Source of the DNA: a virus
Strand: one strand, 5' to 3'
Virus record (IMG/VR): IMGVR_UViG_3300037156_000269
Span: 32,626 to 96,625 of that record
DNA: 64,000 bases
The notes under the pieces: model-generated
Told to the model about the DNA's origin: nothing
Databases searched by the model: none
The model's input: only the letters and a program-made list of their open reading frames with translations
Program-made: the position numbers and the translations under genes
In this document: positions 1-62,707 of the stretch, piece after piece
Numbering within the stretch: the stretch's first letter is position 1
Layout of the letters: the number at the start of each line of letters is the position of its first letter

Positions 1-147
1 AGAAGCACCTCTCTCCCGAAGGCTGATGCCCTCCATCAAGAAGCTTTGCGATTGAATCAAAGGATGATGACTATTTCTTTAAGGCAGTTGGCCCGAGACC
101 TCCACCCATCAAAACCCGCGTGGTCTAAAGAACTGAAGAGGAAGTAA
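1..147 (+). CDS. C-terminal fragment of an upstream gene
   Basis: The frame is open from the first base and ends in TAA at 145-147, giving 48 residues that are basic near the end (...SWSKELKRK-like tail, with Leu/Arg-rich segments). The stop overlaps the ATG of the next gene (TAATG), the same coupling seen along this run of small genes, which is the main reason to believe it. No function can be given because the N-terminus lies outside the window. Confidence 0.6.
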   Translation, partial: RSTSLPKADALHQEALRLNQRMMTISLRQLARDLHPSKPAWSKELKRK

Positions 148-548
148 TGTTCACTTTGGGTTTCTCAAAAACCGCAGCCTTCGACCACAATAACCAGGGT
201 CTGGAATTTAAAATGTCCGACATGGGTAGTGGTAACGTCGGAGCAGGCGGCATGGCCCCCAGTGGTATTCCCTCCTACCAGCCTTTTGACAATAACAAAG
301 AGGGTGGAGGCCAGAAGCTGAGTCGCAAGGCCCGTGCCCGCATGGCCATCAATGCCATGTACAAGTTCAGCTCCGGGATGTCGGACGCAGGACTTTCAGA
401 TAGTGGCGGATCTGATATTGCGTCAGGTACCGTTGATCAGTTAAAATGGACTTCTCAGAACGGGCCCACTCTCGAGCAAGAAGCCGATGACCGTAAAGAA
501 CAAAAAAACCGCCGCAAGGCCTACCTTAAATCGAGGATACGCGAATGA
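147..548 (+). CDS. Small protein with capsid-targeting-like N-terminus
   Basis: 133 residues. It begins MFTLGFSKTAAF, the clearest copy of the N-terminal motif shared by about twelve proteins in this window. The remainder is Gly/Ser/Asp rich and ends in a strongly basic, charged tail (DDRKEQKNRRK). I recognise no domain. ATG 147 overlaps the preceding stop, and its own stop overlaps the next start (ATGA at 545), so four genes here are probably translationally coupled. I infer a virion-internal protein delivered with the DNA; the sequence does not show what it does. Confidence 0.75.
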   Translation: MFTLGFSKTAAFDHNNQGLEFKMSDMGSGNVGAGGMAPSGIPSYQPFDNNKEGGGQKLSRKARARMAINAMYKFSSGMSDAGLSDSGGSDIASGTVDQLKWTSQNGPTLEQEADDRKEQKNRRKAYLKSRIRE

Positions 549-877
549 GCTTTACAGATGGATTTTTTAAACTTGCGGCCGAACCGGTTGTCTTCAGTGC
601 TCTCGCCAATGCCGCGAAAAAAGGACTCTCCCACGCAGGCGGATCCACAATCAAGGATGCCCTGAAACTTAAAGGCCTCAGCCACATCGGCGAAGCCGTT
701 AAGAAAAGCGGTGGTCTTGGAAAAAGCTTCACCACTCAGGCCGGCCGCGAAGCCTTAGCTGAGGGCGTCGGTAAAGCAGCTCCATCTCTTGGCGCGGCGG
801 CAGCCTATGGTGTAGGTGCTAAAAAAGTTTACAATAAAGTCTCTGAGAACGATAACCGCGGACAGGGTGGGTACTGA
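545..877 (+). CDS. Small protein with capsid-targeting-like N-terminus
   Basis: 110 residues. It starts MSFTDGFFKLAAEP, matching the shared motif (aromatic, Gly-Phe, Lys-x-Ala). The body is rich in Ala, Gly and Lys, with a short hydrophobic Gly/Ala stretch near residues 80-95 that could contact membrane or pack as helix. The stop overlaps the next ATG (TGATG). No recognisable family. It is likely a co-packaged or head-associated protein, inferred only from the N-terminal motif and the operon. Confidence 0.75.
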   Translation: MSFTDGFFKLAAEPVVFSALANAAKKGLSHAGGSTIKDALKLKGLSHIGEAVKKSGGLGKSFTTQAGREALAEGVGKAAPSLGAAAAYGVGAKKVYNKVSENDNRGQGGY

Positions 878-1089
878 TGTTCACTTTAGGGTTTGAGAAA
901 ACAGCTGGCCCCGCTATTGCTGAAAACTTGTTCAACGACCGCCTAAAGCGTGTAGGACACAGCATCGCTCGTAAAACCAAAGATGTTGCCAAGCACGTCG
1001 TCAAAAACCGCAGAGATTATCTGTTTGGCGGCGGGGCTGCCGGCACGATCGGCACAGCCATCGGTGTAAACCGAAAAAAGGATAAATAA
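877..1089 (+). CDS. Small basic protein with capsid-targeting-like N-terminus
   Basis: 70 residues, starting MFTLGFEKTAGP. A basic amphipathic middle (many Arg/Lys, residues 20-48) is followed by a Gly/Ala-rich hydrophobic segment FGGGAAGTIGTAIG and a basic end RKKDK. It could be a small membrane-active or DNA-associated internal protein. The stop overlaps the next start (TAATG at 1087-1091). No family is recognised. Confidence 0.72.
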   Translation: MFTLGFEKTAGPAIAENLFNDRLKRVGHSIARKTKDVAKHVVKNRRDYLFGGGAAGTIGTAIGVNRKKDK

Positions 1090-1274
1090 TGTTCACCAAA
1101 GGCTTCAAAAAACAAGCAGACGCCCCACCGATCATGCCCACCGCGGCTCAAGGTAAAGCTTTCCGCAAAGGCATGAATCAAGACGTCTCCGTCTCCCAAG
1201 GCTGGCAGAACATCAAGAATGAAGTCGGCAGTCTCTTTGGAGGCGCCCCTAACGTCGGAAAAATGGGCGGCTGA
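1089..1274 (+). CDS. Small protein with capsid-targeting-like N-terminus
   Basis: 61 residues. It starts MFTKGFKKQADAPP, again with Gly-Phe followed by Lys and an alanine at the motif position. It is the last gene of this four-gene coupled run. The next gene lies on the opposite strand, and a weak GGGCGG/CCGCCC inverted repeat spans its end (about 1264-1299). No domain is recognisable. Confidence 0.7.
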   Translation: MFTKGFKKQADAPPIMPTAAQGKAFRKGMNQDVSVSQGWQNIKNEVGSLFGGAPNVGKMGG

Positions 1275-2570: not shown

Positions 2571-2579
2571 ATGGGGTCT

Positions 2580-9710: not shown

Positions 9711-9931
9711 TGAAGCTCAGCGAAGTTTTTGAAAAGTATCCAAAGGGCACCGAGGTCAAGCGAGTCTTGAACTACACAGAACCTGAGAGGTCTTTCACAG
9801 TGTTTCGTGGCAAGGTAGACGAGAAGAAGGATGGTTTATTCTGGCTGATCGACTACGCAGAACCTCCTGTCCCGGGTCTTCTTGGTCTTACTGGCAGACC
9901 GCAAGACTCTGATGGATGGGAGCTACTCTGA
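9710..9931 (+). CDS. Hypothetical small protein coupled to RNA polymerase
   Basis: 73 residues starting MKLSEVFEKYPKGTEVKR. ATG 9710 overlaps the polymerase stop (TGATG), and its own stop overlaps the next start in the same way. The composition suggests a small soluble beta fold with acidic and aromatic residues (GLFWLIDYAEPP). I recognise no family. Tight coupling to the polymerase makes a polymerase-associated role possible but unproven. Confidence 0.7.
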   Translation: MKLSEVFEKYPKGTEVKRVLNYTEPERSFTVFRGKVDEKKDGLFWLIDYAEPPVPGLLGLTGRPQDSDGWELL

Positions 9932-10179
9932 TGTTTACAAAAGGTTTCACAAAATCAGCAGAAGTCCTCGACACCGCAGAACGCAAAGAACTTCCTTCGA
10001 AAGATTTCGCACTCAAAGGCGCTAAAAAAGGCAAAGCCAACGAAGGTAAGTACCCGATTCCAGACGAAAGTCACGCGAGAAATGCACTTTCTCGCGTGAG
10101 TCAATTTGGGTCTCCTGCAGAAAAAGCAGCTGTCCGCGCCAAGGTCCATGCTAAATACCCGAACATCGGTAAAAAATAA
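9931..10179 (+). CDS. DUF6582-like small protein with targeting-like N-terminus
   Basis: 82 residues. It begins MFTKGFTKSAEVL, the shared N-terminal motif. The rest (LPSKDFAL...KYPIPDESHARNALSRVSQFG...AAVRAKVHAKYPNIG) matches by eye the small domain often annotated DUF6582 in phage structural clusters, typically with the motif 'YPIPD-x-x-HARNAL'. ATG 9931 overlaps the preceding stop. Function unknown; the N-terminus suggests prohead delivery. Confidence 0.7.
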   Translation: MFTKGFTKSAEVLDTAERKELPSKDFALKGAKKGKANEGKYPIPDESHARNALSRVSQFGSPAEKAAVRAKVHAKYPNIGKK

Positions 10180-10197: not shown

Positions 10198-10704
10198 ATG
10201 TTTACACACGGTTTTAAAAAAACAGCCGCAGCTCCCGGAGTCGCGTCCATGGCCAGCAAGGCCAAGGGCCTCCTTCCAAACTTCATGAAGGCAAAAGCCC
10301 CCGTTGCCGCCGTCGCCAGTAAAGTAAAGGGCAACGTGGCCGCCTCTGCAGCCGCACGCGGCGCCTCCAAGATCGGAGACAAAGGGTTCACCTCCGGGTT
10401 TAGCGGTTCAGCCAATATGCACGACAAAATCAAAACCATGCCCAACGCTCAACAAGGCCGCATAGAAAAAAGCTACGCTAAATCCAAAGGCGTCAAAGTC
10501 GAGGATCGCGGTAGCCAGTTTGAAAAAGCACAACGTAAAGCAAAAGCACCTGCTTCAGCACCATCTGCTCCTGCAGCGAAGCCCGCGGACGGTGGAAGTT
10601 TCATGTCGAAGATTAAGCCAGCACATGCAGCTATTGGGGCCGGTGGCGCAGCGGCAGGGTACTTGGCGGCCAGTTCCGGTAACAACAACCAACAGCAAAG
10701 GTAA
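10198..10704 (+). CDS. Ala/Lys-rich protein with targeting-like N-terminus
   Basis: 168 residues starting MFTHGFKKTAAAPG. The body is Ala/Lys/Gly/Pro-rich and low complexity, with a C-terminal Gly/Ala hydrophobic segment (AAIGAGGAAAGYLAA) and a Gln/Asn tail. GATAAA at 10182-10187 lies 10 nt before the ATG and may be a promoter -10 element. No domain is recognised. The composition resembles small internal head proteins that bind DNA, which is inference. Confidence 0.7.
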   Translation: MFTHGFKKTAAAPGVASMASKAKGLLPNFMKAKAPVAAVASKVKGNVAASAAARGASKIGDKGFTSGFSGSANMHDKIKTMPNAQQGRIEKSYAKSKGVKVEDRGSQFEKAQRKAKAPASAPSAPAAKPADGGSFMSKIKPAHAAIGAGGAAAGYLAASSGNNNQQQR

Positions 10705-10710
10705 GTGAAA

Positions 10711-11178
10711 ATGAGCTTCTGCTGTGGGTTTGAAAAAACATCAGCTTCCATCCCAGGCGCGATTGGCGCAGTTCGTGGTACAGCCGCGAAAGTAACTAAA
10801 GGCATCTCAGCCGGTATCAAAAAGTTCGTCGGTGGGCAGAAGGCCAAGGGCATCTCCAGCTACCGATCAGCCTCTGGTGTTGGCAGCAAGATGGCTCCCG
10901 GCGAAGGATTAGCCGCAGGCCGAGCTCGTCGCGCACAAGCCTCTGGCAAAGGTAGCTTCACGCCGAAGGCCAACGATGCTCGCGAAACAAAAGCTCGCTC
11001 AGACGTGTATGCGCGCAAAACGAAAGTAGAAGATGCCAAGTCTGGCAACAAACCGTCATTCGCTCGCAAGCATCCGTTTATAACGGCCGGCGCTCTGTAT
11101 CTTGGAACCAAGTCCGCTCTCAGCGGTGGTGACAAAGAACAGTCCCAGCAACCGCAGTACATCGGCCCTCAGCAATAG
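10711..11178 (+). CDS. Basic Ala/Gly-rich protein with targeting-like N-terminus
   Basis: 155 residues starting MSFCCGFEKTSAS, a variant of the shared motif. It is very basic (many Lys/Arg, Gly/Ser linkers), with a short hydrophobic segment ITAGALYLGTKSAL near the end and a Gln-rich tail. ATG 10711 was preferred over the in-frame GTG at 10705 because the motif then sits at the extreme N-terminus. Last gene before the terminator at 11184. Confidence 0.7.
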   Translation: MSFCCGFEKTSASIPGAIGAVRGTAAKVTKGISAGIKKFVGGQKAKGISSYRSASGVGSKMAPGEGLAAGRARRAQASGKGSFTPKANDARETKARSDVYARKTKVEDAKSGNKPSFARKHPFITAGALYLGTKSALSGGDKEQSQQPQYIGPQQ

Positions 11179-21495: not shown

Positions 21496-21521
21496 TACTT
21501 AAATAAAAGTTAGAAGACGAG

Positions 21522-21550
21522 AGCCGCGCTGTCATGGTGCGGCTTTTTTT
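21522..21550 (+). terminator. Intrinsic terminator after the lipoprotein gene
   Basis: AGCCGC (21522-21527) pairs with GCGGCT (21539-21544), followed by seven T on the plus strand. Confidence 0.85.
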
Positions 21551-21587
21551 ATTCCAAATATGGGCAAAGTTTACCTATACTGGGTGA

Positions 21588-29113: not shown

Positions 29114-29290
29114 TTATTTTGCTGATTTTGGCAGGAAGCCAGAAGAGTTGAAGGCTTTGTTTGGGTTACCGATGTCGATGTACTTAGCACCGGCATTAAG
29201 TGCTGCGCGATCGGCCAGGCGTTGGGATGCCTGGCGGGCGGCTGAGGATGCTCCGGGAGCTACTTTGCGGAAACCTTTTAAGAAGTTCAT
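29114..29290 (-). CDS. 58-residue protein with targeting-like N-terminus
   Basis: From ATG 29290. It begins MNFLKGFRKVAPG, matching the Gly-Phe-x-Lys-x-Ala N-terminal motif of the plus-strand small proteins, and is then Ala/Arg/Ser-rich, ending FLPKSAK. It is the only copy of the motif found on the minus strand. The ribosome binding site is weak (GAGAT 12 nt before). Function unknown; the motif suggests delivery into the head. Confidence 0.6.
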   Translation of the reverse strand: MNFLKGFRKVAPGASSAARQASQRLADRAALNAGAKYIDIGNPNKAFNSSGFLPKSAK

Positions 29291-30365: not shown

Positions 30366-30478
30366 TCGCAATCCCCCTCAGCCCAGGCCGCAACGTTAGC
30401 CCAGATATAAAAACCTATCGTCGCAACGATTACCGCCGCGACAATGCCTGACAAAAATACTTGTGCTAGGATCGTCAT
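30362..30478 (-). CDS. 38-residue single-span membrane protein
   Basis: From ATG 30478, with AAAGGACGATAA upstream. It is nearly all hydrophobic (MTILAQVFLSGIVAAVIVAI, then GFYIWANVAAW) with an acidic end AEGDCE. The stop overlaps the next ATG (ATGA), and it lies just after the promoter at 30514-30543, making it the first gene of the unit. Function unknown. Confidence 0.65.
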   Translation of the reverse strand: MTILAQVFLSGIVAAVIVATIGFYIWANVAAWAEGDCE

Positions 30479-30513
30479 TTATCGTCCTTTCTTTTATAAA
30501 ACGCTTCACAACA

Positions 30514-30543
30514 CTTATACCATAAATAGCTATTATTTAGTCC
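30514..30543 (-). promoter_or_regulatory. Minus-strand promoter, TGGTATAAG type
   Basis: TGGTATAAGTG (30522-30514) is a good -10 block; the -35 position reads GACTAA and is weak. It overlaps the end of the polymerase gene. Confidence 0.55.
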
Positions 30544-32452
30544 ATACGGGCAGCAAATTTCCTTCGACTTTCATAGTGACTTTTTTGAGCATCTTGTTGG
30601 CCTCTTCGATCATGATCTTCTTTTGAAGTTCGTGACCTTCCTGGGCACAGGATTTATGAAAATCGACCACGGTTTCATCGTAAACAGAGTTGTAGAAACG
30701 GGCATCGTAGCCGAGGCGTTTAAATTCCTTTCTCATTACCGCCATAGCATTTTTGGTCATGTCCGCGTTCACTGTCTGGATTTGACAGTTGGCGCCTTCT
30801 CGTTGGATGGCTGCTAGATGACCCTTGTGCTTCTGCTTGATCATCTCAGGCAGATCGCGGCAGCGCATGTCATCTGTCAGTGCAATCTTGCCGTTTCTGG
30901 TTAGCTCTTTTATCGCTTCAGCTTCGATCTTCTTGATGTTCGGCTTGAACCAATGTCGAGTCCGGCCGTTGACGTTATGCATGATGAACTGCGAAGACGC
31001 CAAGCGTTGCTGAGATTTAAGCCAGCCTATTGCCTGGTGGAATGTGTTGTTGTATTTTTTAAATAGCTGCTCGCACTCTTCCAGAGTAATCTTGTGACCT
31101 ATCTCATAAACAAGCTTTTCGTATAAACTAAATGGGCTCATTCCGTATGCTATACCGAAGGATAAAGTTTTTGCAGGCGTGCGGTAATGGGCGTTCTCGT
31201 TGGTCTTTGTAACCTCAACGCCCAATAGCATCGACGCCACGTAACAGTGGAAATCCACGCCCGAGTTAAAGCCTTCAATCATCAGCTCATCACCACTCAG
31301 CTCGGCTAGAATTACTAGCTCTGCTCCGCTATAATCCACAGTTGAAATAAGCCGATCGTCATCTGTACAAAAAGCGTTTCGATATCTCTTATCTCGTGGA
31401 ATATTTAGACAGTTGAGCCCTCTGCATGTCGGTCTTCCTGTTTCAGTTCCATATTGGTTCATCCTGAAATGCACGCGGCCGGTTTCTGAATTAATTCCGT
31501 CGAGATAAGTCTGCCCATACGTACCAGTGAGCTTTGCAGCCGATCGGTAAGCCATCAGCGCGCGAATAGGCTCCAGATCCTTGATCTTGTTTTGAGTCTT
31601 TTTATTCGTATTGCTGATTGTTTTACCACCGACCTTTACGCCCATCATCTGAAGTGCACGAAGAACTTCTGGGGTTGAGTCGTAATTGATATCAACCACA
31701 AGCTCTCCTTCGCGGCCAGGCTCGAGGCTCCACTCTTTGTTGCACACAGGCTCAAACCATCGGTCGAGAATCGCTTTGGCTTCTTTAGCTTTTTGCGCGT
31801 TCTGAAGCATGATCTGCTTCCACGCCTCTACACTGATCTTCTGACCGTAGAACTGAATGTCAGCGAAGGCTTGAATAGCTCCGCACTCGGTATGGAGCCA
31901 GGTGTCAAGGACACCTGCTTCAATAGCTGCTTCTTTGATCTTGCCAGCGAGAGGGATCATGACGTGCGCATCGAATGCCGCGTACTCGAGCTGTTCTTGC
32001 GAAAACTCTCCTTCATAGTCAATGAAGGATGTTTGTAGATCCTTGTCCATTTCAAGACCGAGGTATTTCTTAGCCACGGTTGCGAGGTCAAGGCCGCCGA
32101 ACTGAGACCCTGCGGTGAGGCACCGCTCACCTAAGCGTGTGCAGACAAGGTTCTCTGTCTCAACCCCACAAGTCCCTTTCGTCATCATGTATTCAAAGGG
32201 TGCGTTGTGTGCGAGCTTAATGATTTTGTCGTTGTCGAGAAGCGGCTTAAAGATCAGTAGGTTATTTTTATTTCTGGTGTCTACAACCCAAGTGTTGTCT
32301 TTATCTGCGAAAGTGGACAGGGTCGCTTTGTTTTTATGCGGGTCGAGGCCGGTAGTTTCTAAATCCCATCCAACGACTTTTTGAGTGAGTAAATGCTGAC
32401 AAAGTTTATGTGCTTCAGCAGCGCTTTTGATATAGGTGAACGGTATCGCCAT
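30533..32452 (-). CDS. polA: Family-A DNA polymerase with 3'-5' exonuclease
   Basis: 639 residues. The N-terminal exonuclease domain has Exo I DLETTGLD (Asp30, Glu32), Exo II LAHNAPFEY and Exo III YAAFDAHVMI. The polymerase domain shows motif A VDYSGAELVILAEL (DYSQIELR type), motif B RTPAKTLSFGIAYG and motif C YNSVYDE (about 587-593), with Tyr in place of the usual His of HDE. It lacks a 5' nuclease domain, as in T7-type phage polymerases. It is likely the phage replicase. ATG 32452 has GGGAGGAATCC in front; promoter at 32491-32520. Confidence 0.94.
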   Translation of the reverse strand: MAIPFTYIKSAAEAHKLCQHLLTQKVVGWDLETTGLDPHKNKATLSTFADKDNTWVVDTRNKNNLLIFKPLLDNDKIIKLAHNAPFEYMMTKGTCGVETENLVCTRLGERCLTAGSQFGGLDLATVAKKYLGLEMDKDLQTSFIDYEGEFSQEQLEYAAFDAHVMIPLAGKIKEAAIEAGVLDTWLHTECGAIQAFADIQFYGQKISVEAWKQIMLQNAQKAKEAKAILDRWFEPVCNKEWSLEPGREGELVVDINYDSTPEVLRALQMMGVKVGGKTISNTNKKTQNKIKDLEPIRALMAYRSAAKLTGTYGQTYLDGINSETGRVHFRMNQYGTETGRPTCRGLNCLNIPRDKRYRNAFCTDDDRLISTVDYSGAELVILAELSGDELMIEGFNSGVDFHCYVASMLLGVEVTKTNENAHYRTPAKTLSFGIAYGMSPFSLYEKLVYEIGHKITLEECEQLFKKYNNTFHQAIGWLKSQQRLASSQFIMHNVNGRTRHWFKPNIKKIEAEAIKELTRNGKIALTDDMRCRDLPEMIKQKHKGHLAAIQREGANCQIQTVNADMTKNAMAVMRKEFKRLGYDARFYNSVYDETVVDFHKSCAQEGHELQKKIMIEEANKMLKKVTMKVEGNLLPVWTK

Positions 32453-34435: not shown

Positions 34436-34756
34436 ATGTTTTTAATTGGATTTAGTAAGGTGGCGGCTAGTTACGCTAATTTGACCCCCGAGGACATCGC
34501 CGAACGCGTTTCCGAGAAGTATCCTTATCAGGGTGCGGTCTACGGTGCGGCGGCTGGTGCGGCGGCTGGTGGAGCAAAAAAGCACACCGCGAAAGCAGCT
34601 CTTGTCGGCGCCGGTCTTGGCGCTGCGGCTGGAGCCGGTGTAGGTCACGGGCGTAAGGCTTGGTCGAAGTATAAATCTCGCAGGCTTGGTCGTGAGATCA
34701 GCGAATACAATCTCCGGGCAACCCCGCGCCGCTACAGTTATCACGAGGAGGATTAA
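34436..34756 (+). CDS. Gly-zipper protein with targeting-like N-terminus
   Basis: 106 residues starting MFLIGFSKVAASY, the shared N-terminal motif. A Gly/Ala-rich hydrophobic segment (GAVYGAAAGAAAGGAKK, GAGLGAAAGAGVGHG) forms glycine zippers, and the tail is very basic with Tyr. GATAAA (34419-34424) lies 11 nt before the ATG. First gene of the head-morphogenesis block. It could be a membrane-active ejection or internal protein. Confidence 0.7.
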   Translation: MFLIGFSKVAASYANLTPEDIAERVSEKYPYQGAVYGAAAGAAAGGAKKHTAKAALVGAGLGAAAGAGVGHGRKAWSKYKSRRLGREISEYNLRATPRRYSYHEED

Positions 34757-34759: not shown

Positions 34760-35608
34760 GTGCATCGTTCAAAAGAAGTCCTAAACAATCTCGCCAAACT
34801 CGCTGCAGAAGCGTATTTATCTAAAAAAACTCCTCTCAACACTTCACTGACGAAAACGGCTAAAGAAGAGGGCCTCGAGCCCCACCAGATTGAGTATGTG
34901 GCGGCACAAGCCAATCACACCGTTTGGGAACGCCTTTACGGAATGGATAAAAAAGCGAGCTATGATTTCCCAGTCGCCGATCCCAATGCGGTCATCAAAG
35001 AGCTTCAGGTAAAGCCAAAAGGTGTTATCAAAGAAGCCGGTCTCGACTATCTTTCAGGACCTGGCGGCTACACCGAGAAAACAGCTTCGTTCGAGCTGAG
35101 CAGCATCGACAAGACTTCCGCAGAAAAGCGCGAGCTCAAAAAGACTCTTCAACAGCGTTTTGATAAGATGGCCTCTGCCAAAGAAGACCTCGAAGGCCAG
35201 ATGTTCATGCTGAAGTTAAAATTTGGCGAGGTTGAGAAGACTTTTATGAAAGAAGCGCGGGCTCTCATTATGGAGCAGCCGTTTACTGATCGTGGCGCGG
35301 CTATGATGAAGATAGCTGAATTTGTGCGCTCGGCTTCGGAAGACAACGAAGCTCTAGCTCGTGCTCTTATGCTGAAGCTTTCGGCGGTTATCGTTGGTCA
35401 GGGGCTCATCAAGAAGGCTGATCTTAAGGCTCCAGAAGAGTATATCGACATGAAGATGCCGGCGAAGATCGTCAACGGTCGCCACGCTCTCTATATCACA
35501 ATTAAAACTTTAAAAGACATCCGTCAGGAGTACGATCCTTTGCACCGTGGTGCCGAGATCGTCGACAGCTCTTTACCAGAACTAAGGGAGAAGATCCGTG
35601 CACTCTAA
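34760..35608 (+). CDS. Helical head-assembly protein with K-x-A motifs
   Basis: 282 residues from GTG 34760, preceded by GAGGAGGATTAATCA. Mostly helical and charged. The hydrophobic-x-K-x-A motif recurs (LAKLA, LTKTA, MDKKA, TEKTA, FDKMA, FMKEA, MMKIA), a density typical of scaffold or core proteins that are cut during head maturation. No family is recognised. It begins the cluster leading to protease, scaffold-like proteins and capsid. Confidence 0.7.
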   Translation: MHRSKEVLNNLAKLAAEAYLSKKTPLNTSLTKTAKEEGLEPHQIEYVAAQANHTVWERLYGMDKKASYDFPVADPNAVIKELQVKPKGVIKEAGLDYLSGPGGYTEKTASFELSSIDKTSAEKRELKKTLQQRFDKMASAKEDLEGQMFMLKLKFGEVEKTFMKEARALIMEQPFTDRGAAMMKIAEFVRSASEDNEALARALMLKLSAVIVGQGLIKKADLKAPEEYIDMKMPAKIVNGRHALYITIKTLKDIRQEYDPLHRGAEIVDSSLPELREKIRAL

Positions 35609-35795
35609 AGGATTTATTGGCGGGTTTGAAAAGACGGCCGGAGTTCTCAGCACGTTAGCGGCCCCCGTTAAGGCAGCTGGCAAGTTCGCGGTCAAAGCTC
35701 TGGGCGGCGGCGCGAACATTGCGATGACTGCTTTGGGTGCTGGTGTTGAGGGTGCTCAGGGTTACAAAAAGCTGACAGACGCTGCGGCGAGGTAA
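35598..35795 (+). CDS. Small protein with targeting-like N-terminus
   Basis: 65 residues from GTG 35598, with GGGAGAAGATCC upstream. It starts VHSKGFIGGFEKTAGVL, with the shared GF-x-KTA shifted five residues inward, followed by Ala/Gly-rich amphipathic and hydrophobic segments. The start overlaps the previous gene by 11 nt. Likely an internal or head-associated peptide. Confidence 0.68.
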   Translation: MHSKGFIGGFEKTAGVLSTLAAPVKAAGKFAVKALGGGANIAMTALGAGVEGAQGYKKLTDAAAR

Positions 35796-35798
35796 TAG

Positions 35799-37046
35799 AT
35801 GAGTAAACTGCGCAAGCAAGCAAGACATGACTTAGACTGTATTCTGAAGCTTGCGAATATCCCGCCTGCGCAGGCGGCTCTTAATATTGAATACATAAAG
35901 GGCATTGCAAAGCCTCTGTTGGCGGCACTGGCCACCGCGGGCGCGGCTGGCCTCACGTCTTACTACTACTCTAAAAAAGACAAAGAACGACACAGTCAGG
36001 CGCTCCTAGACAGCATGAAATCTCTGGCTGTAAAAAGCCCCGAGTTTGGCAAAAGCCCTGAGCAGTTTTTCGAACGATTCGGAGAGCTCTCTGTCATCTC
36101 CCCAACGATTGCAAAAAACCCAACGCTGGCATCAAAAATTCTTGCAAAGAAATTGAACACGGGATTCAGCGTTGATGACATCCATAAACTAACTTCCATC
36201 GAGAACAATGCGTCAGGGCACAAATCGTATAGCCCTGGAGCTGCGGGACGCGCGAGTGCGTCACATGCGCTCACAACTTTAACGACAGCACTTGGTCACG
36301 ATTTTCTAGCGCACAAAATCAAACTGGATGCCGACTACACCGATCGGACGTCTAAAATCAAGAAGGCTCAAGAGACCTTGGCAAGAATGATGCGAATACA
36401 AGACGAGGCGGCGATCCACGAGGCCGCAAGCCACGAAAAAGAGGGGCATGTGAAAGAGCAAAGCGGGCAACGAGTCAGTGACGAATGTTTGGGTACAATG
36501 CTTGCTGAACGGTATGTTCTTGTTAAACAAGCAGGGAAACAAACCGGGCTCTTGGGCGAGGGATTCAAAACCATGGGAAAAGGACTTCAGTTCTTTGCCC
36601 CAGCTCTTGCTTTGGGTGGCGGTATCGAATTGATTCGCCACGTGGTAGAGTCGCGCAGAAACTCCGTTTTGCAGGCACAAGCTGACAAAAACTTCAAAAG
36701 CATGATGGCTACAAACGATAACCTGAAAAGTCCTGAGAACCGATACCTGGCTCAGGAGGCTTTCGATACGCTAAAAGCTGTCGCTCCATCTCTTGCTGCG
36801 CGGCCACTGGTAGCAAAAACTTTCATTGAATACACAGTCGGGCAGGGACAACTTGCTCCACAGACCGTTCAGCAGTTGGCTGAGGCTGAAGACAAAGTTC
36901 GTGGCGTTGGCGGTAAGGGTGGGTTCTTTGACGAGCTCAAGGCCACCGTGGGCGGCAAGTCAGCGCGCGATCTGATGAACCCCAAAACTATCATGGACGC
37001 CGAGACTCATGGACGGCGCCACAGTTATGGTCGGGGTAATAAGTAG
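35799..37046 (+). CDS. Hypothetical head-cluster protein with two hydrophobic segments
   Basis: 415 residues. Basic N-terminus, a hydrophobic stretch at about 37-55 (IAKPLLAALATAGAAGLTSYYY) and another near 265-285 (LQFFAPALALGGGIELI). In between are helical charged regions with His/Glu. K-x-A motifs recur (ILKLA, VKQA). It lies directly upstream of the prohead protease. It may be an internal head or ejected protein that interacts with membrane. Confidence 0.65.
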   Translation: MSKLRKQARHDLDCILKLANIPPAQAALNIEYIKGIAKPLLAALATAGAAGLTSYYYSKKDKERHSQALLDSMKSLAVKSPEFGKSPEQFFERFGELSVISPTIAKNPTLASKILAKKLNTGFSVDDIHKLTSIENNASGHKSYSPGAAGRASASHALTTLTTALGHDFLAHKIKLDADYTDRTSKIKKAQETLARMMRIQDEAAIHEAASHEKEGHVKEQSGQRVSDECLGTMLAERYVLVKQAGKQTGLLGEGFKTMGKGLQFFAPALALGGGIELIRHVVESRRNSVLQAQADKNFKSMMATNDNLKSPENRYLAQEAFDTLKAVAPSLAARPLVAKTFIEYTVGQGQLAPQTVQQLAEAEDKVRGVGGKGGFFDELKATVGGKSARDLMNPKTIMDAETHGRRHSYGRGNK

Positions 37047-37048
37047 TC

Positions 37049-38902
37049 ATGGACAAACGTCTGCTCTTCCCGAAAAATCACGGGCGTGAGCGCGACATCT
37101 TCTTCGTCAACGAAGATAAGGTGTTTTTGCAAAAACACGCCTCTGGGTACCATCCAAAGATTCAAGATTATGTGAGCAAGGCAAAGCCACTTGAGGGTTT
37201 GATTCAGGTTCTCATTACGGCCTTAGGCGCATACCCATTTTGGCCTCAGAACGTAAACGGAGATCGATTTTTGGAGCCAGCATTGGCCCATGAGGGAGAT
37301 GATTATGGCTACCAGACCTTCGCAACAAACGCGAACTACTTCAACCACCACATCAATAAAGATCCTTCACTGGCCAAAGGGAAGGTACTCGCAGCCGTCT
37401 GGAATGAACGGGCAAGACGTGTCGAGCTCATTCTCGGCATCGATCCACAACTTGATACCGACGCCGCGACGGAAATCTCTAACGGCAACAATCTTGCTTT
37501 TAGCATGGGTGCTAAGCTTCCTTTTGACGTTTGTTCTATTTGCGGAAATTGCGCAAAAACACGTATGGAGTACTGCGACCACCTCAGATACCAAATGAAT
37601 CAGATGGACCCCATCACCGGTATGCTGGTGGGGGCACTGAATCCACGCCCACGATTTTTTGATATTTCCCGGGTGCTTATCCCGGCCGACAAGACTGCCT
37701 ATATGTGGGAGAAGATCGCTTCTCCTGCCAGTGCTTTGCTGTCTAAGTTAAGCTCTGCTGAGCTTGCGGAAACATCGGCAAAGAACTGGTTTGATGATAA
37801 ATACCTCCAAGAAAAAGTTGCAATGAAGACAGAGGCTTGGGAAGAAAAACAATCGGGGAAAAGATCGGCAAAAACGGCTGCAGTAAATAAGAGCGCGACT
37901 ATCACTAAGGAGATCCCTGTGACGGAAGCAAAACCACTGTTTGCGTCCCGGTTAAATAAGATTCTGCCTGTCGCGAAAAAGGCCCTCGATGCCTCGGCCC
38001 CAGATCTTGATATGAGTCTTTTCAAAGGCTACAGCCTTCCTCAGATCCTGAGTACGCTGGTCGGGCTATCGATTATTCCTAAAGCCGGAGAGTCTCACAC
38101 CCTTTATGAGCTCTTTGCTGCACACTCGAATATGGATCCAAAGGCTTTTGGGCCGCACGCTTTTTCGCCGGAGTTGGCAAAAAAGCTTCTTCCACAAGTG
38201 CCGGAGCGCTCGTTCGCGCGTCCAGTTCTGTATCGACGCATTGTCGTTTTAGCCGGAAAACCTGAGTCCGAACTTCGCAAAATGGCAGAAGATGGTGGCA
38301 AAAAAGCTTTCCACGCTGGACTGGCGGCCGGACTTATCGCTGCAGCACTCGCGTACAGCGGGCACAGCACAGCTCTCGGAAACCTGCTAGCAGAGCACCC
38401 TTTCCTGACCGCCGTCTTCGGAGCAACCGCGATCAAGAGCTTAAGAGCGCTTGCCCCGGACCGTCCCGTCGTGACTGGTGAAGTTTCTCTTGCGGAACCT
38501 GGTAACCCTTTATATAATACGAACTGGCAGAGACGTTTTGCCGATGCGCAAGCACGTCCCGTCACAGTTATCAAAACTGGTGCTGATCAAAAATCTACTG
38601 TTTTTGAAGATACTCTTGGTGGGATACCTTTTTTGCTATCTCTCGAGGGGATTACTCAGCAACCAGTCCTTGAATTATTGGAACACAATCCGAACATTTT
38701 ATCTGGCAGCCTGATGACCAAAGAGTCGAGCGTTCTTAGTCAGAACGTAGCAGAAATTCTGACTTCTGCCCGCCGATTCATAAAGTCAGCTTCTCTAGAG
38801 AACTTAGAGTTCTTAGAGATAGTACCGGAGAACAGCAGAAACTCAGTCTGGGACCTGGCAATACTACACGCGGCCGATAGAATAACACGGAAGACAAGCT
38901 AA
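37049..38902 (+). CDS. Prohead protease fused to a large C-terminal region
   Basis: 617 residues. Residues ~50-240 look like a herpesvirus-type/S78 prohead protease: NANYFNHHINKDP with the candidate catalytic His100/101, KGKVLAAVWNERARRVELILGID, and NNLAFSMGAKLP with the candidate nucleophile Ser152. A Cys/His cluster (CSICGNC ... YCDHLR) follows. The remaining ~370 residues include K-x-A motifs (SAKTAAV, FIKSASL, LRKMAED) and a Gly/Ala hydrophobic segment near 430, and may be a scaffold/core part released by autocleavage. The enzyme matures the head; its probable targets are the neighbours with the same motif. Confidence 0.8.
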   Translation: MDKRLLFPKNHGRERDIFFVNEDKVFLQKHASGYHPKIQDYVSKAKPLEGLIQVLITALGAYPFWPQNVNGDRFLEPALAHEGDDYGYQTFATNANYFNHHINKDPSLAKGKVLAAVWNERARRVELILGIDPQLDTDAATEISNGNNLAFSMGAKLPFDVCSICGNCAKTRMEYCDHLRYQMNQMDPITGMLVGALNPRPRFFDISRVLIPADKTAYMWEKIASPASALLSKLSSAELAETSAKNWFDDKYLQEKVAMKTEAWEEKQSGKRSAKTAAVNKSATITKEIPVTEAKPLFASRLNKILPVAKKALDASAPDLDMSLFKGYSLPQILSTLVGLSIIPKAGESHTLYELFAAHSNMDPKAFGPHAFSPELAKKLLPQVPERSFARPVLYRRIVVLAGKPESELRKMAEDGGKKAFHAGLAAGLIAAALAYSGHSTALGNLLAEHPFLTAVFGATAIKSLRALAPDRPVVTGEVSLAEPGNPLYNTNWQRRFADAQARPVTVIKTGADQKSTVFEDTLGGIPFLLSLEGITQQPVLELLEHNPNILSGSLMTKESSVLSQNVAEILTSARRFIKSASLENLEFLEIVPENSRNSVWDLAILHAADRITRKTS

Positions 38903-38911
38903 GGAGTACTC

Positions 38912-39559
38912 ATGGCTACATTAGAAGAAATCTTAGCGCAGGTAGGGTTAAGCGAAGCACCGTCACAAACGAAGACTGCTTCTGCCGCCGCACCGAGCTC
39001 TAAGGAAGTTAACAAAGTATTAGAGGATTTGGGACTAAGTGGAGTCGAAGATATCGACAACGCAGGCGTGACCAAAACCGCATCCGAAGGAAGGAACCAC
39101 ATGGGATTTACAGATATCTACGACTCGATGTTCGGTGAGGTAGCTCCGGCTGCTACAGAGGAAACACAAGTGAAAACTGCTGCCGCTGACGCTGTTGCTA
39201 CAGCTGAAGCCGGCGCAGAAGAAGTCACCGAGTCTTCGACAGCAATGGGCGAATTGACAGGCATTTATTTCAACGTGCTTGAAGATTCTTTCTACGAAAA
39301 ACTCGCAGGCGACCTTGAAATGGAAGCCGGCAAAGGACACAAGAGCGTTGACAACGCTGGTGGCGAGTTGTCGCGCATCGTTGGCAAAGAAGGCGATCCA
39401 CGCATCGCTGTAAACCACGACCCCGCTAGCGGCGCTGGTTTGAAAGTTAACCCAGGAAACCAAACTCCGTACTCGCTGAAAGCCAAAGCACAGATCAAAG
39501 CGATCCTGAAAAGGAACATGAAGTCTGAGCCAGGCGACATCGGTGGATACAACGAGTAA
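38912..39559 (+). CDS. Acidic core/scaffold-like protein with three KTA motifs
   Basis: 215 residues, with TAAGGAGTACTC upstream. The first half is acidic and Ala/Glu-rich, punctuated by QTKTASAA, VTKTASEG and QVKTAAAD, nearly identical to QVKTAQAG in the capsid protein. The second half ends in a basic C-terminus (KAKAQIKAILKRNMK). This arrangement (repeated cleavage-like sites, acidic body) is what one expects of a scaffold that is digested during maturation. Confidence 0.7.
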   Translation: MATLEEILAQVGLSEAPSQTKTASAAAPSSKEVNKVLEDLGLSGVEDIDNAGVTKTASEGRNHMGFTDIYDSMFGEVAPAATEETQVKTAAADAVATAEAGAEEVTESSTAMGELTGIYFNVLEDSFYEKLAGDLEMEAGKGHKSVDNAGGELSRIVGKEGDPRIAVNHDPASGAGLKVNPGNQTPYSLKAKAQIKAILKRNMKSEPGDIGGYNE

Positions 39560-39586
39560 ACGAAGAAAAAGAAATAGGAGTTAAAT

Positions 39587-40417
39587 ATGGATTTGCAGAA
39601 ATTAAGCACAGCGATGGAAAAGATGTCCGAAGAGGATCTCCAAGCCATTCTGGACACTGAGTTTGATGCTGAACTGGAAAAAGAAGCTTCTGACGAGCTT
39701 GCACAATCCGATCTCGAAAATGCTTTGTACGCTTATGGCGCATACAAAGCTGACCTCGAAATCGAGAGTGAAGAAGCTGGCGAAGATGGCATGAGCAAGG
39801 AAGCCTCTGAAAATTTCGAAGCCGCTGAGACAGAGATCTCTGCAGCTATCGAAGCCGGTATTGTAGAGCTTGGCCTTGACGCCATCGAAGATGACGTTGA
39901 AATGCATAAGACTGCAATGTCTGCCGCTTCTTTGATTTTCGAAGGCTACACTGACCATATGGAAAAGTGTGCGGCGAAAAGCAAAAAAGACGGTAAAGGC
40001 CTCAAAGGCATGTACGGTGCTGCCAAGAAAAAAATTGGCGCTCTTGCAGGCAAAGCTGGAGCACTCGGCAAAAAGCACGGTAAAGCCGGCGCTCTCCTTG
40101 CTGGCGGCGCAGCTCTCGGTTACGGCGGAGCAAAAGCTCACGAGCACATGAAGAAAAGTGCTTCTGAGCTTACCGCTGCTGAACTCGTTGACCTCACTTT
40201 GTCTAAACAGGCAACAGTTGAAGTCGTCGCTGACGGCATCGAGAAACTCGCGGCTCGTGGATCTGCTAAGGCTGGATTGCTTTCGAAAGGTCTGGGCCAT
40301 GTAAAAGCCCTCCACAAGAAGCATCTCGCCGGTCACGGTAAGCACATGGCTGCTGCCGGTGCAGCTGGCGCAGGCGCGGGCTACTTGGCTCATCGCATGC
40401 AGAAGAAGGATAAGTAA
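39587..40417 (+). CDS. Core/scaffold-like protein, acidic then basic
   Basis: 276 residues, with ATAGGAGTTAAAT upstream. An acidic N-terminal half (EEDLQAILDTEFDAELEKEA...) is followed by a very basic Gly/Lys/His-rich half with Gly/Ala hydrophobic patches. Hydrophobic-x-K-x-A is frequent (LEKEA, MSKEA, MHKTA, MEKCA, MKKSA, LSKQA, IEKLA). Probably an internal scaffold or precursor of DNA-binding internal peptides. Confidence 0.7.
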   Translation: MDLQKLSTAMEKMSEEDLQAILDTEFDAELEKEASDELAQSDLENALYAYGAYKADLEIESEEAGEDGMSKEASENFEAAETEISAAIEAGIVELGLDAIEDDVEMHKTAMSAASLIFEGYTDHMEKCAAKSKKDGKGLKGMYGAAKKKIGALAGKAGALGKKHGKAGALLAGGAALGYGGAKAHEHMKKSASELTAAELVDLTLSKQATVEVVADGIEKLAARGSAKAGLLSKGLGHVKALHKKHLAGHGKHMAAAGAAGAGAGYLAHRMQKKDK

Positions 40418-40418
40418 G

Positions 40419-40886
40419 ATGGCAGTCCGCCCGCTGAAAGACCTATTACGGGACGCTGACAAGTTTAGCACTTCGCTAAATAAGTCGGCATCAGCGGCGC
40501 CTGCCGGACCAGACGAGATTACTGCTTTCGCTGAGAGTTTGATTGACGCTGAGTCAATCACCTCCAGCGATAACGGTTTCGAGAAGATGGCAATGGCTCT
40601 TAACAGAGCCGATGCCCTACTCCAAATCGAGACCCTTCTCAAGATCGCGAAATTTGAAGAGCAGGCTCTAAAGGCAGGCTTCTCAAAAGAGCAGGTCAGT
40701 GAGGCAGTGGAGAAGATCGCGGCTAAAAAAACTCGCGATAATCTGGCCGTTTTAATGGCAGTCGACGGTGGTATTATCCCTGGAATAGATAAAAATACGC
40801 TGGTGAAGAAAAAAGTTCCAGCTAGCGAAATCGGTCAGGCACTTAATGAAAAAGTGGTGACCAAGAGTTTGGGGTACGGCACATGA
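40419..40886 (+). CDS. Head-cluster protein with K-x-A motifs
   Basis: 155 residues from ATG 40419 (MAVRPLKDLLRDADKFS). Helical, with LNKSASAA, FEKMAMA, LLKIAKF and VEKIAAK. A Gly/Ile/Pro stretch (VDGGIIPGIDKN) lies near the end. The next ATG overlaps its stop (ATGA). Likely scaffold or minor head protein. Confidence 0.68.
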   Translation: MAVRPLKDLLRDADKFSTSLNKSASAAPAGPDEITAFAESLIDAESITSSDNGFEKMAMALNRADALLQIETLLKIAKFEEQALKAGFSKEQVSEAVEKIAAKKTRDNLAVLMAVDGGIIPGIDKNTLVKKKVPASEIGQALNEKVVTKSLGYGT

Positions 40887-41227
40887 AAACAGTTTCTACT
40901 GAACAAGTGAAACTCGCCGGTGAACTCCTAAAGCGTGAACACGAGCTTCGTTTAGGTTTGGAAAAAGAAGCTCAGGATCACAAGCTTGAGAAACGGGCGG
41001 CTAAAATCGCTTTTCGTGAGATCGAGCTTGGATTGTCTGAGCCTTATAAAAGCCATGAGGAGTTTCTGAATAAGGTCGCAAACCTTATGAAAGAAGACCT
41101 CGACGTGGTTGAAAAGGCGCTTGAAAGAGGATACGGACCTTCGCGTAGAATTGGCGAACTTGCTGAGGAAACCGGCAAGAGTCTCGACCCATTCACACGT
41201 TGGGTAAAACACGGCGAACTGGAATAA
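40883..41227 (+). CDS. Small helical head-cluster protein
   Basis: 114 residues, starting inside the preceding stop (ATGA). Highly helical and charged (REHELRLGLEKEAQDHKLEKR), with LEKEA, LEKRA and LNKVA. It may be a scaffold component. It precedes the decoration-like gene. Confidence 0.68.
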   Translation: MKTVSTEQVKLAGELLKREHELRLGLEKEAQDHKLEKRAAKIAFREIELGLSEPYKSHEEFLNKVANLMKEDLDVVEKALERGYGPSRRIGELAEETGKSLDPFTRWVKHGELE

Positions 41228-41247
41228 CAAAGAAGGAGTATTAAATT

Positions 41248-41718
41248 ATGGCAACATTACCTGAATTGGTCGCCCCTATTGCGGTCGATCTTCGCGCAGC
41301 AGACGAGTCTTTCGATATCATCAAAGGTATCGAGCATCTTAATTACCAGGATGGTTTGTTGGTCGATCAGACCCTTACCGTTACTCCTGGCGACTGGATG
41401 ACGATTGCATCAAGCGGCTTTGTTGTTCCGGCAACAGGCAACGCGGTGGGAAACGTTTACCCAGTCATCGTTGGCAACAACGAATATGACTCTCTTGCTA
41501 CTGGCGACCTCACAGTCGCTATCGGCGGGGGCTTCATGTACAAGACGACTAAGTATGTCGCTGGTTCATACACAATTGGTCAAAACCTTTGTGTAAAAGA
41601 TCTTGGCGGCGGCGAGCGCGTTCCATCGGCAGCAGGCTCTAACGACGCAATCGTTGGTCGCGTGTTTGCTCTGGACATTGTGAAGAACGTCATGACGATT
41701 CTGGTTCTTAACCGCTAA
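41248..41718 (+). CDS. Capsid decoration-like protein
   Basis: 156 residues, with AGAAGGAGTATTAAAT upstream. Beta-rich and Gly/Val/Thr-rich (DQTLTVTPGDWMTIASSGFV, GNVYPVIVGNNEYDS, GRVFALDIVKNVMTILVL). The size, composition and position directly before the major capsid gene fit a head-decoration protein. It has no K-x-A sites, consistent with addition after maturation. Confidence 0.65.
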   Translation: MATLPELVAPIAVDLRAADESFDIIKGIEHLNYQDGLLVDQTLTVTPGDWMTIASSGFVVPATGNAVGNVYPVIVGNNEYDSLATGDLTVAIGGGFMYKTTKYVAGSYTIGQNLCVKDLGGGERVPSAAGSNDAIVGRVFALDIVKNVMTILVLNR

Positions 41719-41748
41719 TCGGCGGGCCCTAGTGGCCGCAACGATAAA

Positions 41749-41772
41749 AGAGAGTGTGGATTCACACTCTCT
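41749..41772 (+). terminator. 10-bp perfect hairpin between decoration and capsid genes
   Basis: AGAGAGTGTG-GATT-CACACTCTCT. No immediate T-run, so it may be a weak terminator, an RNase processing site or an mRNA stabiliser that sets the capsid mRNA level. Confidence 0.6.
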
Positions 41773-41833
41773 GGCAAAATTAGTTTTGTTTTTGTATTTG
41801 AATTCGAAGCCAACCTAAGAAGGAGGAGGCACC

Positions 41834-42757
41834 ATGTTTTCTGATGAGGCAGCAACGTTTAACAACCTGTTCGTCGAGCGTATGGATACGCAAGATGGAC
41901 AAGTGAAGACTGCTCAAGCGGGTCAAGCGTATGTACGCTCGTTCCTGCGTGAACACTCTGTAGCGCGCAAGATCCTTCCACCTGAGTCAGTCACTCGCGC
42001 AGACCTGACTCGCAGCACCCGCCACGATACGCTGATCAAAATCGTGGATTTCGAACATCCGTCTACAGCAGCAGCTGTAAACTTCCGTTCGGCTGGTCGC
42101 GAGCGTTACCTTCAAGGTAAACGTTACGCTGTGCCATTCTTCAAAGTAGAGAGCGATCTCTTCACGAAGAACGAAGCGGAACTGTTGGCCTACGAGTATC
42201 CGGTAACTAAAGTTATCGAAGAGAACTCGATCAAGGACATCATGTTCGTAGAAGATTCGACTTTCATCTCCGCTTCAAACGGAGCCGTTTACAACAGCGG
42301 TAAGAAAATCGTATCGGCCGACACAAGCGTAACACGCTCGAACTTGAACAAATTGTTCAAGATGATCGACGTAGACAAGCTTCAGTCGATGGTGTGCTTG
42401 ATGACCAACGTCGATTTCGATGACTGGCAGACACAGCAAGCAACAGACGTCGGTTCGCCGATGGCTTCTGCTATGACTGTTGACGGTTACAAGCATGACC
42501 ACATCATGCGCCGCCGCCTCATCGTCACAAACAAAGTTGATCTGCTCCCACCGGGCACAATCAATGCCTATACTGATCCTCAGTTCTTAGGGAATTTTTT
42601 CATATTGAATGATGTGAAATTTTGGATCAAGAAAGAAGCAGACAAGGTGTTTTGGAAGACCTGGGAGTACGTCGGCCTCGGAATTGCAAACCTTCGTTCG
42701 GTTTCGCAAATCACTCTCGCAGTCCCACAAATTATCCCTGGCGGCGGAAGCTTCTAA
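41834..42757 (+). CDS. Major capsid protein
   Basis: 307 residues, with a very strong AAGAAGGAGGAGGCACC in front. The order of segments suggests the HK97 fold: an N-arm with QVKTAQAG near residues 23-30, an extended loop region (RERYLQGKRYAVPFFKVESDLF), a central helix (KNEAELLAYEYPVTKVIEENSIKDIMFVED) and a C-terminal beta region. VKTA in the N-arm is a plausible prohead-protease cut, which would remove ~26 residues. Its position after protease, scaffold and decoration genes supports the call. Confidence 0.82.
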   Translation: MFSDEAATFNNLFVERMDTQDGQVKTAQAGQAYVRSFLREHSVARKILPPESVTRADLTRSTRHDTLIKIVDFEHPSTAAAVNFRSAGRERYLQGKRYAVPFFKVESDLFTKNEAELLAYEYPVTKVIEENSIKDIMFVEDSTFISASNGAVYNSGKKIVSADTSVTRSNLNKLFKMIDVDKLQSMVCLMTNVDFDDWQTQQATDVGSPMASAMTVDGYKHDHIMRRRLIVTNKVDLLPPGTINAYTDPQFLGNFFILNDVKFWIKKEADKVFWKTWEYVGLGIANLRSVSQITLAVPQIIPGGGSF

Positions 42758-49794: not shown

Positions 49795-50679
49795 ATGTTC
49801 TTAGGCGGCTTCAAGAAGCAATCCGGGTCCCTTGATAAGGGGGACCGGAAAGATGTGCGCAATTCTGCGATAGCCGGTACGGCCGGCGGAGCTGCTCTTT
49901 ATGCCGGCCACGATTACATGCTGGACCGCAGAGAGAAAAAACTACCAAACCGAAGAACTTTTTCTGAGTTCAAAAAACACCTCAATCCAGGCGATATTTT
50001 AATTTCTGGAGGAACGCCGGCAAAGTCAGATGCTCTTTGGCTCAGCTCAAAGATCCCGCAAAAGCTGTGGGAGATGACTCCGGAAATTATTAAGGATAGG
50101 AAAATCACAACGATCAGCAGCATGCTGAGCGGAGCTGGTGCCGGGTCGAAATATCACGCCGGCATTTATTTAGGTAAAAACCGTGTCGGGCACATGTCCG
50201 GCGGGGCCTATAACGAAAGTCTGAAAGCTGCATTCAAGAACCAGAACGTAGCAGCTTATCGGTTTGGTGACTCCACTAAAAAAGAGCGCGAGTCGGCTGT
50301 TAAATATGTTCGCAAGGTCATTAAAGACAAAACTCCGTACAGTCTAGCAAAGGCTGCGCCGCAAGTACTTACGAACTTGGTAAGTCCTATTGGGCGCAAA
50401 GCGAACCGCAAAGCGAAAGGCAGTCAGGTTTGCAACACGCTTCCCTCGCGTGCGTACAATAAGCGACGTTTCACGTGGCAGGGGGAGCACACTTATTCAG
50501 GGGATTTAAGGAAAGCGAAAAACTTAGCTCCCGTTGCGCGTAAGGATGCGTTTAAGCTACCTATTGCTTACACGGCAAGAGGCCGCCTAGGACAGGCGGC
50601 TAAGGGCATTAAGTTCGGACTTGGGGCAGCCGCAGCGACCTACGGCTACAAGAAGTACAAAGAGCACCAAGGCAAGTAG
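49795..50679 (+). CDS. Permuted NlpC/P60-like (YiiX-type) enzyme with targeting-like N-terminus
   Basis: 294 residues starting MFLGGFKKQSGSL, the shared N-terminal motif. The domain from ~60 to ~240 has LNPGDILISGG, KYHAGIYLGKNRVGHM (candidate His121) and KGSQVCNTLPS (candidate Cys213). His before Cys is the circularly permuted papain order of YiiX/YaeF-type and LRAT-like members of the NlpC/P60 clan. Such enzymes cut peptide or amide bonds, often in cell wall, or act as acyltransferases. The N-terminal motif suggests it is carried in the virion and acts at or after DNA entry. Basic Gly/Ala-rich C-terminus. Confidence 0.72.
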   Translation: MFLGGFKKQSGSLDKGDRKDVRNSAIAGTAGGAALYAGHDYMLDRREKKLPNRRTFSEFKKHLNPGDILISGGTPAKSDALWLSSKIPQKLWEMTPEIIKDRKITTISSMLSGAGAGSKYHAGIYLGKNRVGHMSGGAYNESLKAAFKNQNVAAYRFGDSTKKERESAVKYVRKVIKDKTPYSLAKAAPQVLTNLVSPIGRKANRKAKGSQVCNTLPSRAYNKRRFTWQGEHTYSGDLRKAKNLAPVARKDAFKLPIAYTARGRLGQAAKGIKFGLGAAAATYGYKKYKEHQGK

Positions 50680-62250: not shown

Positions 62251-62251
62251 C

Positions 62252-62653: not shown

Positions 62654-62707
62654 AATAAATCTCCCAAATAGGAATGTATTTCCTATCTGGAAGGTATCAG
62701 GGGAGGT

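Follow-up and report, generated by a model that had tools for sequence, protein, structure and literature searches.

A candidate Lys-x-Ala cleavage motif for the prohead protease of a lineage of large bacteriophages, recurring in a putative N-terminal packaging tag

In a lineage of large phages, the phage studied here among them, the proteins that build the capsid appear to be cut after Lys-x-Ala (K-x-A) and not after the usual x-Glu. The phage is represented by IMG/VR virus record IMGVR_UViG_3300037156_000269, from which we analysed a stretch of 64,000 nucleotides (henceforth the window; bases 32,626-96,625 of the 175,117-base record) with a head-assembly cassette at 34.4-42.8 kb. We are strongly inclined to believe that the 617-residue prohead (head maturation) protease encoded in this cassette (37049..38902, + strand) cuts after the Ala in G-[LMF]-x-K-x-A^[SA], where the caret marks the cut, thereby processing itself, core proteins, the N-terminal arm (N-arm) of the capsid protein and a set of N-terminal tags. 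Sequence shows the motif and the tag, as well as where the motif is placed, how well it is conserved and how strongly it is concentrated in the head cassette. We infer that this protease, which is distantly related to phage G gp19, would make the cuts: during head maturation it would take off its own N- and C-terminal extensions, digest K-x-A-rich core and scaffold proteins to short peptides and trim 27 residues off the capsid N-arm, leaving a mature shell protein that begins QAGQAYVR. A tag of the form FxxGFxKxA, usually with 10-11 residues to the cut, would recruit small, very basic proteins to the prohead core and be cut off in the prohead, and the tagged proteins would then be packaged with the DNA and probably ejected, as the T4 internal proteins are.

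The named relatives of the window phage are Salmonella phage Arash and Vibrio phages D69, D148 and D181, with Bacillus phage G more distant; its capsid, portal and protease are distant relatives of their phage G counterparts. The portal gene, homologous to phage G gp14, lies upstream of the window (record positions 30,081-31,964). The protease gene sits just upstream of the capsid gene, together with core or scaffold genes, in the window, Arash, D69, phage G and most of the loci L084-L108, and in the window K-x-A-rich proteins are encoded before and between the two. Open reading frames (ORFs) were taken from our own ORF caller.

We carried out an unbiased scan in which gapped residue pairs (up to ~1,800 per cassette) were compared with the expectation from each protein's own composition; such pair tests assume independent sites, and loci that are related cannot be counted as independent samples. 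When the head cassettes of five phages were pooled (Arash, D69, the metagenomic relative G004, phage G and the window phage), K-x-A was the top pair, with 230 occurrences vs. 119 expected (p = 9e-20). By phage, it took first place in three (Arash, D69 and G004), came second in the window phage (49 vs. 29 expected; rank 2 of 1,677 pairs, p = 4.5e-4) and was sixth in phage G. Outside the head cassette we found no K-x-A excess in the genomes of the window phage (278 vs. 281 expected), Arash, D69 or G004. The scan was extended to 17 further divergent metagenomic loci, found via a protease profile and mostly sharing 30-49% protease identity (some being near-duplicates), and K-x-A ranked first or second of ~1,400 pairs in all 17. 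As a positive control, the head proteins of T4 returned L-x-E and I-x-E at ranks 1 and 2, i.e., the known T4 motif [LI]-x-E. Single-protein tests were weak for most proteins, the signal sitting in the pooled cassettes.

The enrichment was specific to this pair and this spacing. When sequences were shuffled within 12-residue blocks, which keeps composition locally, K-x-A stood at z-scores of 10.7 and 19.9, and [LM]xKxA[SA] was seen 55 times vs. 2.8 in such shuffles. By the same measure R.A, K.S, K.G, E.A, KA, K...A and A.K were not enriched, K..A was at most weakly enriched (z 0.6 and 1.7), and [LIVM]-x-E reached only z 2.3 and 4.4, which speaks against a cleavage motif ending in Glu. Around K-x-A in head proteins we found enrichment of Gly at P6, Leu/Met at P5, Glu/Val at P4, Thr/Glu/Gln at P2 and, directly after the Ala, Ser at P1' (58 vs. 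16, p = 1e-15), suggesting G-[LMF]-x-K-x-A^[SA] as the full motif. An earlier inspection of the window's letters (henceforth the sequence-only reading) had proposed a hydrophobic-x-K-x-A pattern, which this residue enrichment bears out, with a small residue following it. A matrix trained only on the head cassettes of Arash and D69 ranked the capsid site of the window phage 38th of 53,482, and its top ranks were mostly window head-cassette proteins and N-terminal tags. Among six or seven close orthologues, the K and A of K-x-A were kept in 77% and 75% of cases vs. 50-51% for other K and A (p = 3e-17 and 2e-15), with P2 varying freely.

The most direct indication of where the cut falls comes from the capsid protein. 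The 307-residue major capsid protein (41834..42757, +; phrog_2522, E = 2e-12; PDB 6wkk, phage G gp27, E = 1.7e-10) contains QVKTAQAG in its N-arm, as the sequence-only reading had noticed. The predicted cut follows A27 of K25-T-A27 (41906..41914, +), a site conserved in 7/7 close orthologues. In phage G, according to Table 1 of Hua et al. 2017 (PMC5646251), the capsid protein has 282 residues (31.2 kDa) and its mature form, for which N-terminal sequencing is given, 255 residues (28.2 kDa); the mass that we computed for residues 28-282 (28,170) matches the mature form. Because 282 residues become 255, the site can be deduced from length as lying after residue 27, EEGRVALA^QAMANPIR. BLAST aligned the two capsid proteins without gaps from residue 12 of each through the cut point, and DGQVKTA^QAGQAYVR of the window phage ends at the same residue 27, with Q-A after the cut common to both. 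The mature start QAGQAYVR, predicted by the sequence-only reading, is thus aligned residue for residue with the sequenced N-terminus reported in that table, and this phage G cut is the experimental basis of our proposal. Since phage G has Ala at P3 of this site, P1 Ala is supported experimentally in a relative whereas P3 Lys is not, and P3 Lys would be usual but not obligatory. With that amendment, the assignment of K-x-A to the prohead protease is supported by its concentration in the head cassette, its placement and its conservation among orthologues. Across lineages the aligned N-arm position reads KTA, KEA, KLA, KIA, KVA, KVG or KLG, the alignment being off by one residue in Arash and D69. 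We also considered co-variation, i.e., K-x-G in the capsid arm accompanied by K-x-G in the scaffolds, and rejected it: L093 and L094 keep K-x-A, and L096 has a weak K-x-G excess (17 vs. 10.6).

The 617-residue protein matched the head maturation protease family phrog_18299 (E = 5.8e-7) and phage G gp19 (E = 5e-18), and its homologues in E3, PhiXhv-12 and Pupper are annotated as prohead, head maturation or capsid maturation proteases. H101, S152 and E126 are invariant in an alignment of 16 relatives, H101 and S152 being the presumed catalytic residues of a core at about residues 50-215. Its membership in the T4/herpesvirus (S21-type) fold is suggestive: hhalign aligned T4 gp21 colinearly with no clear sequence match (E = 0.023, probability 2%), and a PDB sequence search with the protease gave no meaningful match. 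On the N-side of the core lies the predicted processing site K29-H-A31 (LQKHA^SG; 37133..37141, +), and divergent proteases extended at the N-terminus, including that of phage G (LVKTA^AK), have K-x-A at roughly the corresponding position. The predicted C-side site, K222-I-A224 (MWEKIA^SP; 37712..37720, +), is kept in 6/6 close orthologues and recurs at the same place in Arash (VLEKVA^NH), D69 (VLQKVA^SN) and phage G (ILEKVA^SK). Divergent lineages with both ends have K-x-A both before and after the core, the exceptions being, on the C-side, one K-I-G and one shifted site; the proteases of E3, I3 and PhiXhv-12 lack the sites flanking the core. Most relatives also have a conserved, possibly zinc-binding C-x-x-C ... 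C-x-H cluster in the protease core after the presumed catalytic Ser. Intein-like insertions with Hint and LAGLIDADG matches, some near the catalytic core, were found in the protease genes L104:4711-7698, L107:6139-9834 and L108:3842-7906, the latter two with an Intein_splicing match as well.

The sequence-only reading had described K-x-A motifs as crowding the scaffold-like proteins, the C-terminal region of the protease and a 722-residue protein. This holds for the 282-residue core-like protein (34760..35608, +), with nine K-x-A vs. 3.7 expected and five of the nine sites conserved in 6/6 orthologues; for the 276-residue scaffold/core-like protein (39587..40417, +), with seven, of which K32, K71, K108 and K220 are conserved 6/6; and for two smaller scaffold/core-like proteins, one of 155 residues (40419..40886, +; 4-5 sites when counted as 155/156 residues, among them SLNKSA, GFEKMA, LLKIA and VEKIA) and one of 114 residues (40883..41227, +; five vs. 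0.9 expected, with 3/5 sites conserved in 7/7 orthologues). It also holds for the protease with its ten, but not for the 722-residue protein, where the count was not significant (10 vs. 6.1, p = 0.09). The 215-residue scaffold/core-like protein (38912..39559, +) does contain QTKTASAA (K21), VTKTASEG (K55) and QVKTAAAD (K88), the KTA triplets lying at nucleotides 38972-38980, 39074-39082 and 39173-39181, as well as KLA at residue 130. K-x-A is indeed absent from the 156-residue decoration-like protein (41248..41718, +), an absence of little weight given that 0.5 is expected and that 5/7 orthologues have one or two. A 415-residue head-cassette protein (35799..37046, +) has five K-x-A, no excess over chance. 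Two K-x-A-rich proteins encoded outside the cassette, of 367 residues (G000 record 20668-21771, L003; 11 vs. 3.9 expected) and 375 residues (G004 6594-7721; 18 vs. 5.5 expected), are candidates for further core or head proteins.

The motif also appears to form an N-terminal tag on many other proteins, which the sequence-only reading had missed. A simple count of all K-x-A within the 25 N-terminal residues showed no clear excess, and only the longer G-F-x-K-x-A pattern stood out. ORFs opening with the motif in the fixed frame M-(x)-F-x-x-G-F-x-K-x-[AS] numbered 12, 17 and 20 in the window phage, G001 and G004; in the comparison with shuffled N-termini the counts were 12, 15 and 16, vs. ~0.5 tagged ORFs per phage after shuffling. 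What we looked for as a sign of capsid targeting, i.e., a short N-terminus shared by different proteins and ending in the protease motif, is thus found on 49 ORFs of three phages. The cut would fall after 10 residues in 26/49 tags and after 11 in 18/49, and P9 is Phe in 49/49, Phe or Met having been demanded there only for tags whose Gly is not at position 5 or 6. The tagged bodies form ~30 groups, mostly unrelated, and are very basic (median isoelectric point 9.8-10.4, p = 5e-4 to 5e-6).

Tags in the window lie, on the + strand unless stated, at 147..176 (MFTLGFSKTA^, ORF 147-548), 545..577 (MSFTDGFFKLA^, ORF 545-877), 877..906 (MFTLGFEKTA^, ORF 877-1089), 1089..1118 (MFTKGFKKQA^, ORF 1089-1274), 9931..9960 (MFTKGFTKSA^, ORF 9931-10179, its body DUF6582-like, E = 0.0035), 10198..10227 (MFTHGFKKTA^, ORF 10198-10704) and 10711..10743 (MSFCCGFEKTS^, ORF 10711-11178). 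Others are found at 29258..29290 on the - strand (MNFLKGFRKVA^, ORF 29114-29290), at 34436..34465 (MFLIGFSKVA^, ORF 34436-34756, with G[FL]xKxA kept in 6/6 orthologues), at 35598..35639 ((V/M)HSKGFIGGFEKTA^, ORF 35598-35795) and at 49795..49824 (MFLGGFKKQS^, ORF 49795-50679, NlpC/P60-like by eye with no Pfam match). In the other two phages, related tagged ORFs at G004 record 61599-62789 (L062) and G001 record 20397-21554 (L070) share a KIDG motif, as in DNA ligases, and the former has a weak match to a DNA ligase OB-domain (E = 0.0011); the tagged ORF G004 64014-64706 is kinase-like by eye, with no Pfam match.

Judged by its sequence and by analogy, the tag is likely to be an analogue of the T4 capsid-targeting sequences, in the same arrangement and with a different motif, and it probably loads a dozen or more small basic proteins per phage into the head. 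More generally, we lean towards a K-x-A-specific prohead protease system shared across a broad clade of large phages. In the subclade of the window phage, a transferable FxxGFxKxA would bring 12-20 different basic proteins per phage into the head, to be delivered to the next host cell, and a DNA-ligase-like and a kinase-like enzyme may be among them.

Several further observations were made in these genomes. In phage G (JN638751.1), about ten or more dispersed ORFs begin with MKRLxKK[AS] or similar (e.g., at 11937, 28218, 207449, 255160, 255911 and 258975), possibly a separate targeting tag ending in the K-x-[AS] form; some of these phage G proteins have ADP-ribosyltransferase-like matches that are weak (E = 0.02-0.04) and indicate such an identity only faintly. 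The RNA polymerase ORF of Arash (OQ632216.1, 130093-134670) begins MPKSA^SELTP; a K-x-A^S at residues 3-5 would suit a protein that is packaged and trimmed. The window itself encodes a 2401-residue RNA polymerase beta-beta' fusion (2505-9707, +; Rpb2_6 E = 1.5e-49, Rpb1_2 E = 2e-26, Rpb1_5 E = 1e-25). Its residues ~418-780, where PHROG matches are to thymidylate synthase, terminase and PhoH families, may be an intein (the G004 ORF has 2033 residues); they gave no Pfam intein match, and a terminase fusion was dropped as less likely than an intein.

Could the pattern be produced otherwise? K, A, E and L abound in core proteins, and the window cassette alone gave a modest p value of 4.5e-4, so K-x-A enrichment might be a by-product of helical, Lys/Ala-rich scaffold proteins. 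We disfavour this and give it next to no credence: the signal persists against composition-keeping local shuffles (z 10.7 and 19.9), there is no enrichment of similar residues, of other spacings or of the reversed pair, and K-x-A sites show higher conservation than K and A elsewhere. It is hardly more plausible that the motif is real and cut by another enzyme, such as a host protease, or after Lys in a trypsin-like manner. The activity of the phage protease is predicted from sequence, and P3 Lys is highly conserved while P2 varies, which would fit such an enzyme; yet in the phage G data cited above the cut falls after Ala at a site without P3 Lys, and the sites flank the phage's own protease.

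Somewhat more serious, and still improbable, is that G-[LMF]-x-K-x-A serves for docking, holding core proteins to the capsid lattice or to one another, with cutting elsewhere. Some positions outside P3-P1 are strongly fixed (P6 Gly, and P9 Phe in every tag), beyond what a protease needs, and T4 capsid-targeting sequences both target and are cut. Against docking alone, the motif ends at the residue aligned with the phage G cut, stands on both sides of the protease core and prefers Ser right after the Ala. For the tag specifically, the alternative is another destination, such as membrane or tail, in place of the head interior: one tagged ORF (49795) follows tail genes, and several tagged bodies have Gly/Ala-rich hydrophobic stretches. 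We regard this as unlikely, though less so than the other three, since the head-cassette motif, P6 Gly included, recurs in the tag, tagged ORFs cluster near portal, capsid and RNA polymerase genes, and the bodies are very basic.

Cleavage after K-x-A by the 617-residue protease remains our preferred explanation, and a number of observations weigh against it. The measured capsid cut, in the source cited, comes from the distant relative phage G alone, where the site (A-L-A) has Ala, not Lys, at P3, cleavage in the window phage and its close relatives being predicted from sequence; the PDB 6wkk sequence includes gp27 residues 1-280. Phage G is also a weaker case in the pair test: K-x-A ranks only sixth in its head cassette, and its remaining genome has slightly more K-x-A than expected (485 vs. 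433, p = 0.008). The capsid site is K-V-G or K-L-G in three lineages (L093, L094 and L096) and T-E-L-Q in one other. Rhodococcus phage E3, with a related protease, shows no K-x-A enrichment; phage I3 has a modest excess (21 vs. 9.5). AlphaFold models, with predicted local distance difference test (pLDDT) scores of 41 for the protease and 31 for the capsid protein from shallow alignments, were not used.

If the proposal is correct, head maturation becomes readable through one motif across the relatives of phage G, a group that seems to have had no stated cleavage rule, and the ends of mature capsid proteins and proteases become predictable from sequence. From small genes that now lack annotation, the tag would yield a predicted list of proteins that are packaged and probably injected. 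Anyone wishing to load foreign proteins into phage heads would also have a further short signal to choose in addition to the T4 one.

The closest parallel is T4. There, internal proteins bear a ~10-residue capsid-targeting sequence and lose short N-terminal peptides to cleavage by gp21; in both systems a short P3-x-P1 motif crowds the core proteins and ends the capsid propeptide, and a short N-terminal tag ends in the same motif. The differences are P1 Ala and P3 Lys here vs. Glu and Leu/Ile in T4, and the occurrence of FxxGFxKxA on 12-20 different ORFs per phage. With phiKZ (gp175), 201phi2-1 and SPN3US (gp245; S-x-E, A-x-E) the present system would share self-processing on the C-terminal side, several propeptide sites and processed ejection proteins, but those phages cut after Glu and mostly remove long propeptides, not a shared 10-residue tag; the SPN3US paralogues gp53 and gp54 do have an identical N-terminus containing the SPN3US motif. 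Herpesvirus assemblin resembles the K-x-A system in that it cuts Ala^Ser and has its release and maturation sites both in the scaffold and around its catalytic domain; it is not known to prefer Lys at P3. Phage G has homologous portal (gp14), protease (gp19) and capsid (gp27; PDB 6wkk) proteins, K-x-A sites flanking the protease core and, as far as the published table goes, a cut after Ala at the aligned residue, and it differs in its capsid P3 Ala and its own recurrent N-terminus MKRLxKK[AS]. A literature search, conducted without most subscription journals, found no paper proposing K-x-A and no motif proposed for phage G. Because the characterised motifs that we checked all end in Glu (T4, phiKZ, 201phi2-1, SPN3US and phage P1, whose capsid cut NKAMLE^SVAAEM we deduced from sequence and the published N-terminus), the K-x-A specificity would be new, as the sequence-only reading had anticipated. 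What would be added to a known kind of enzyme is thus a prohead protease with K-x-A specificity, together with a capsid-targeting tag of new sequence.

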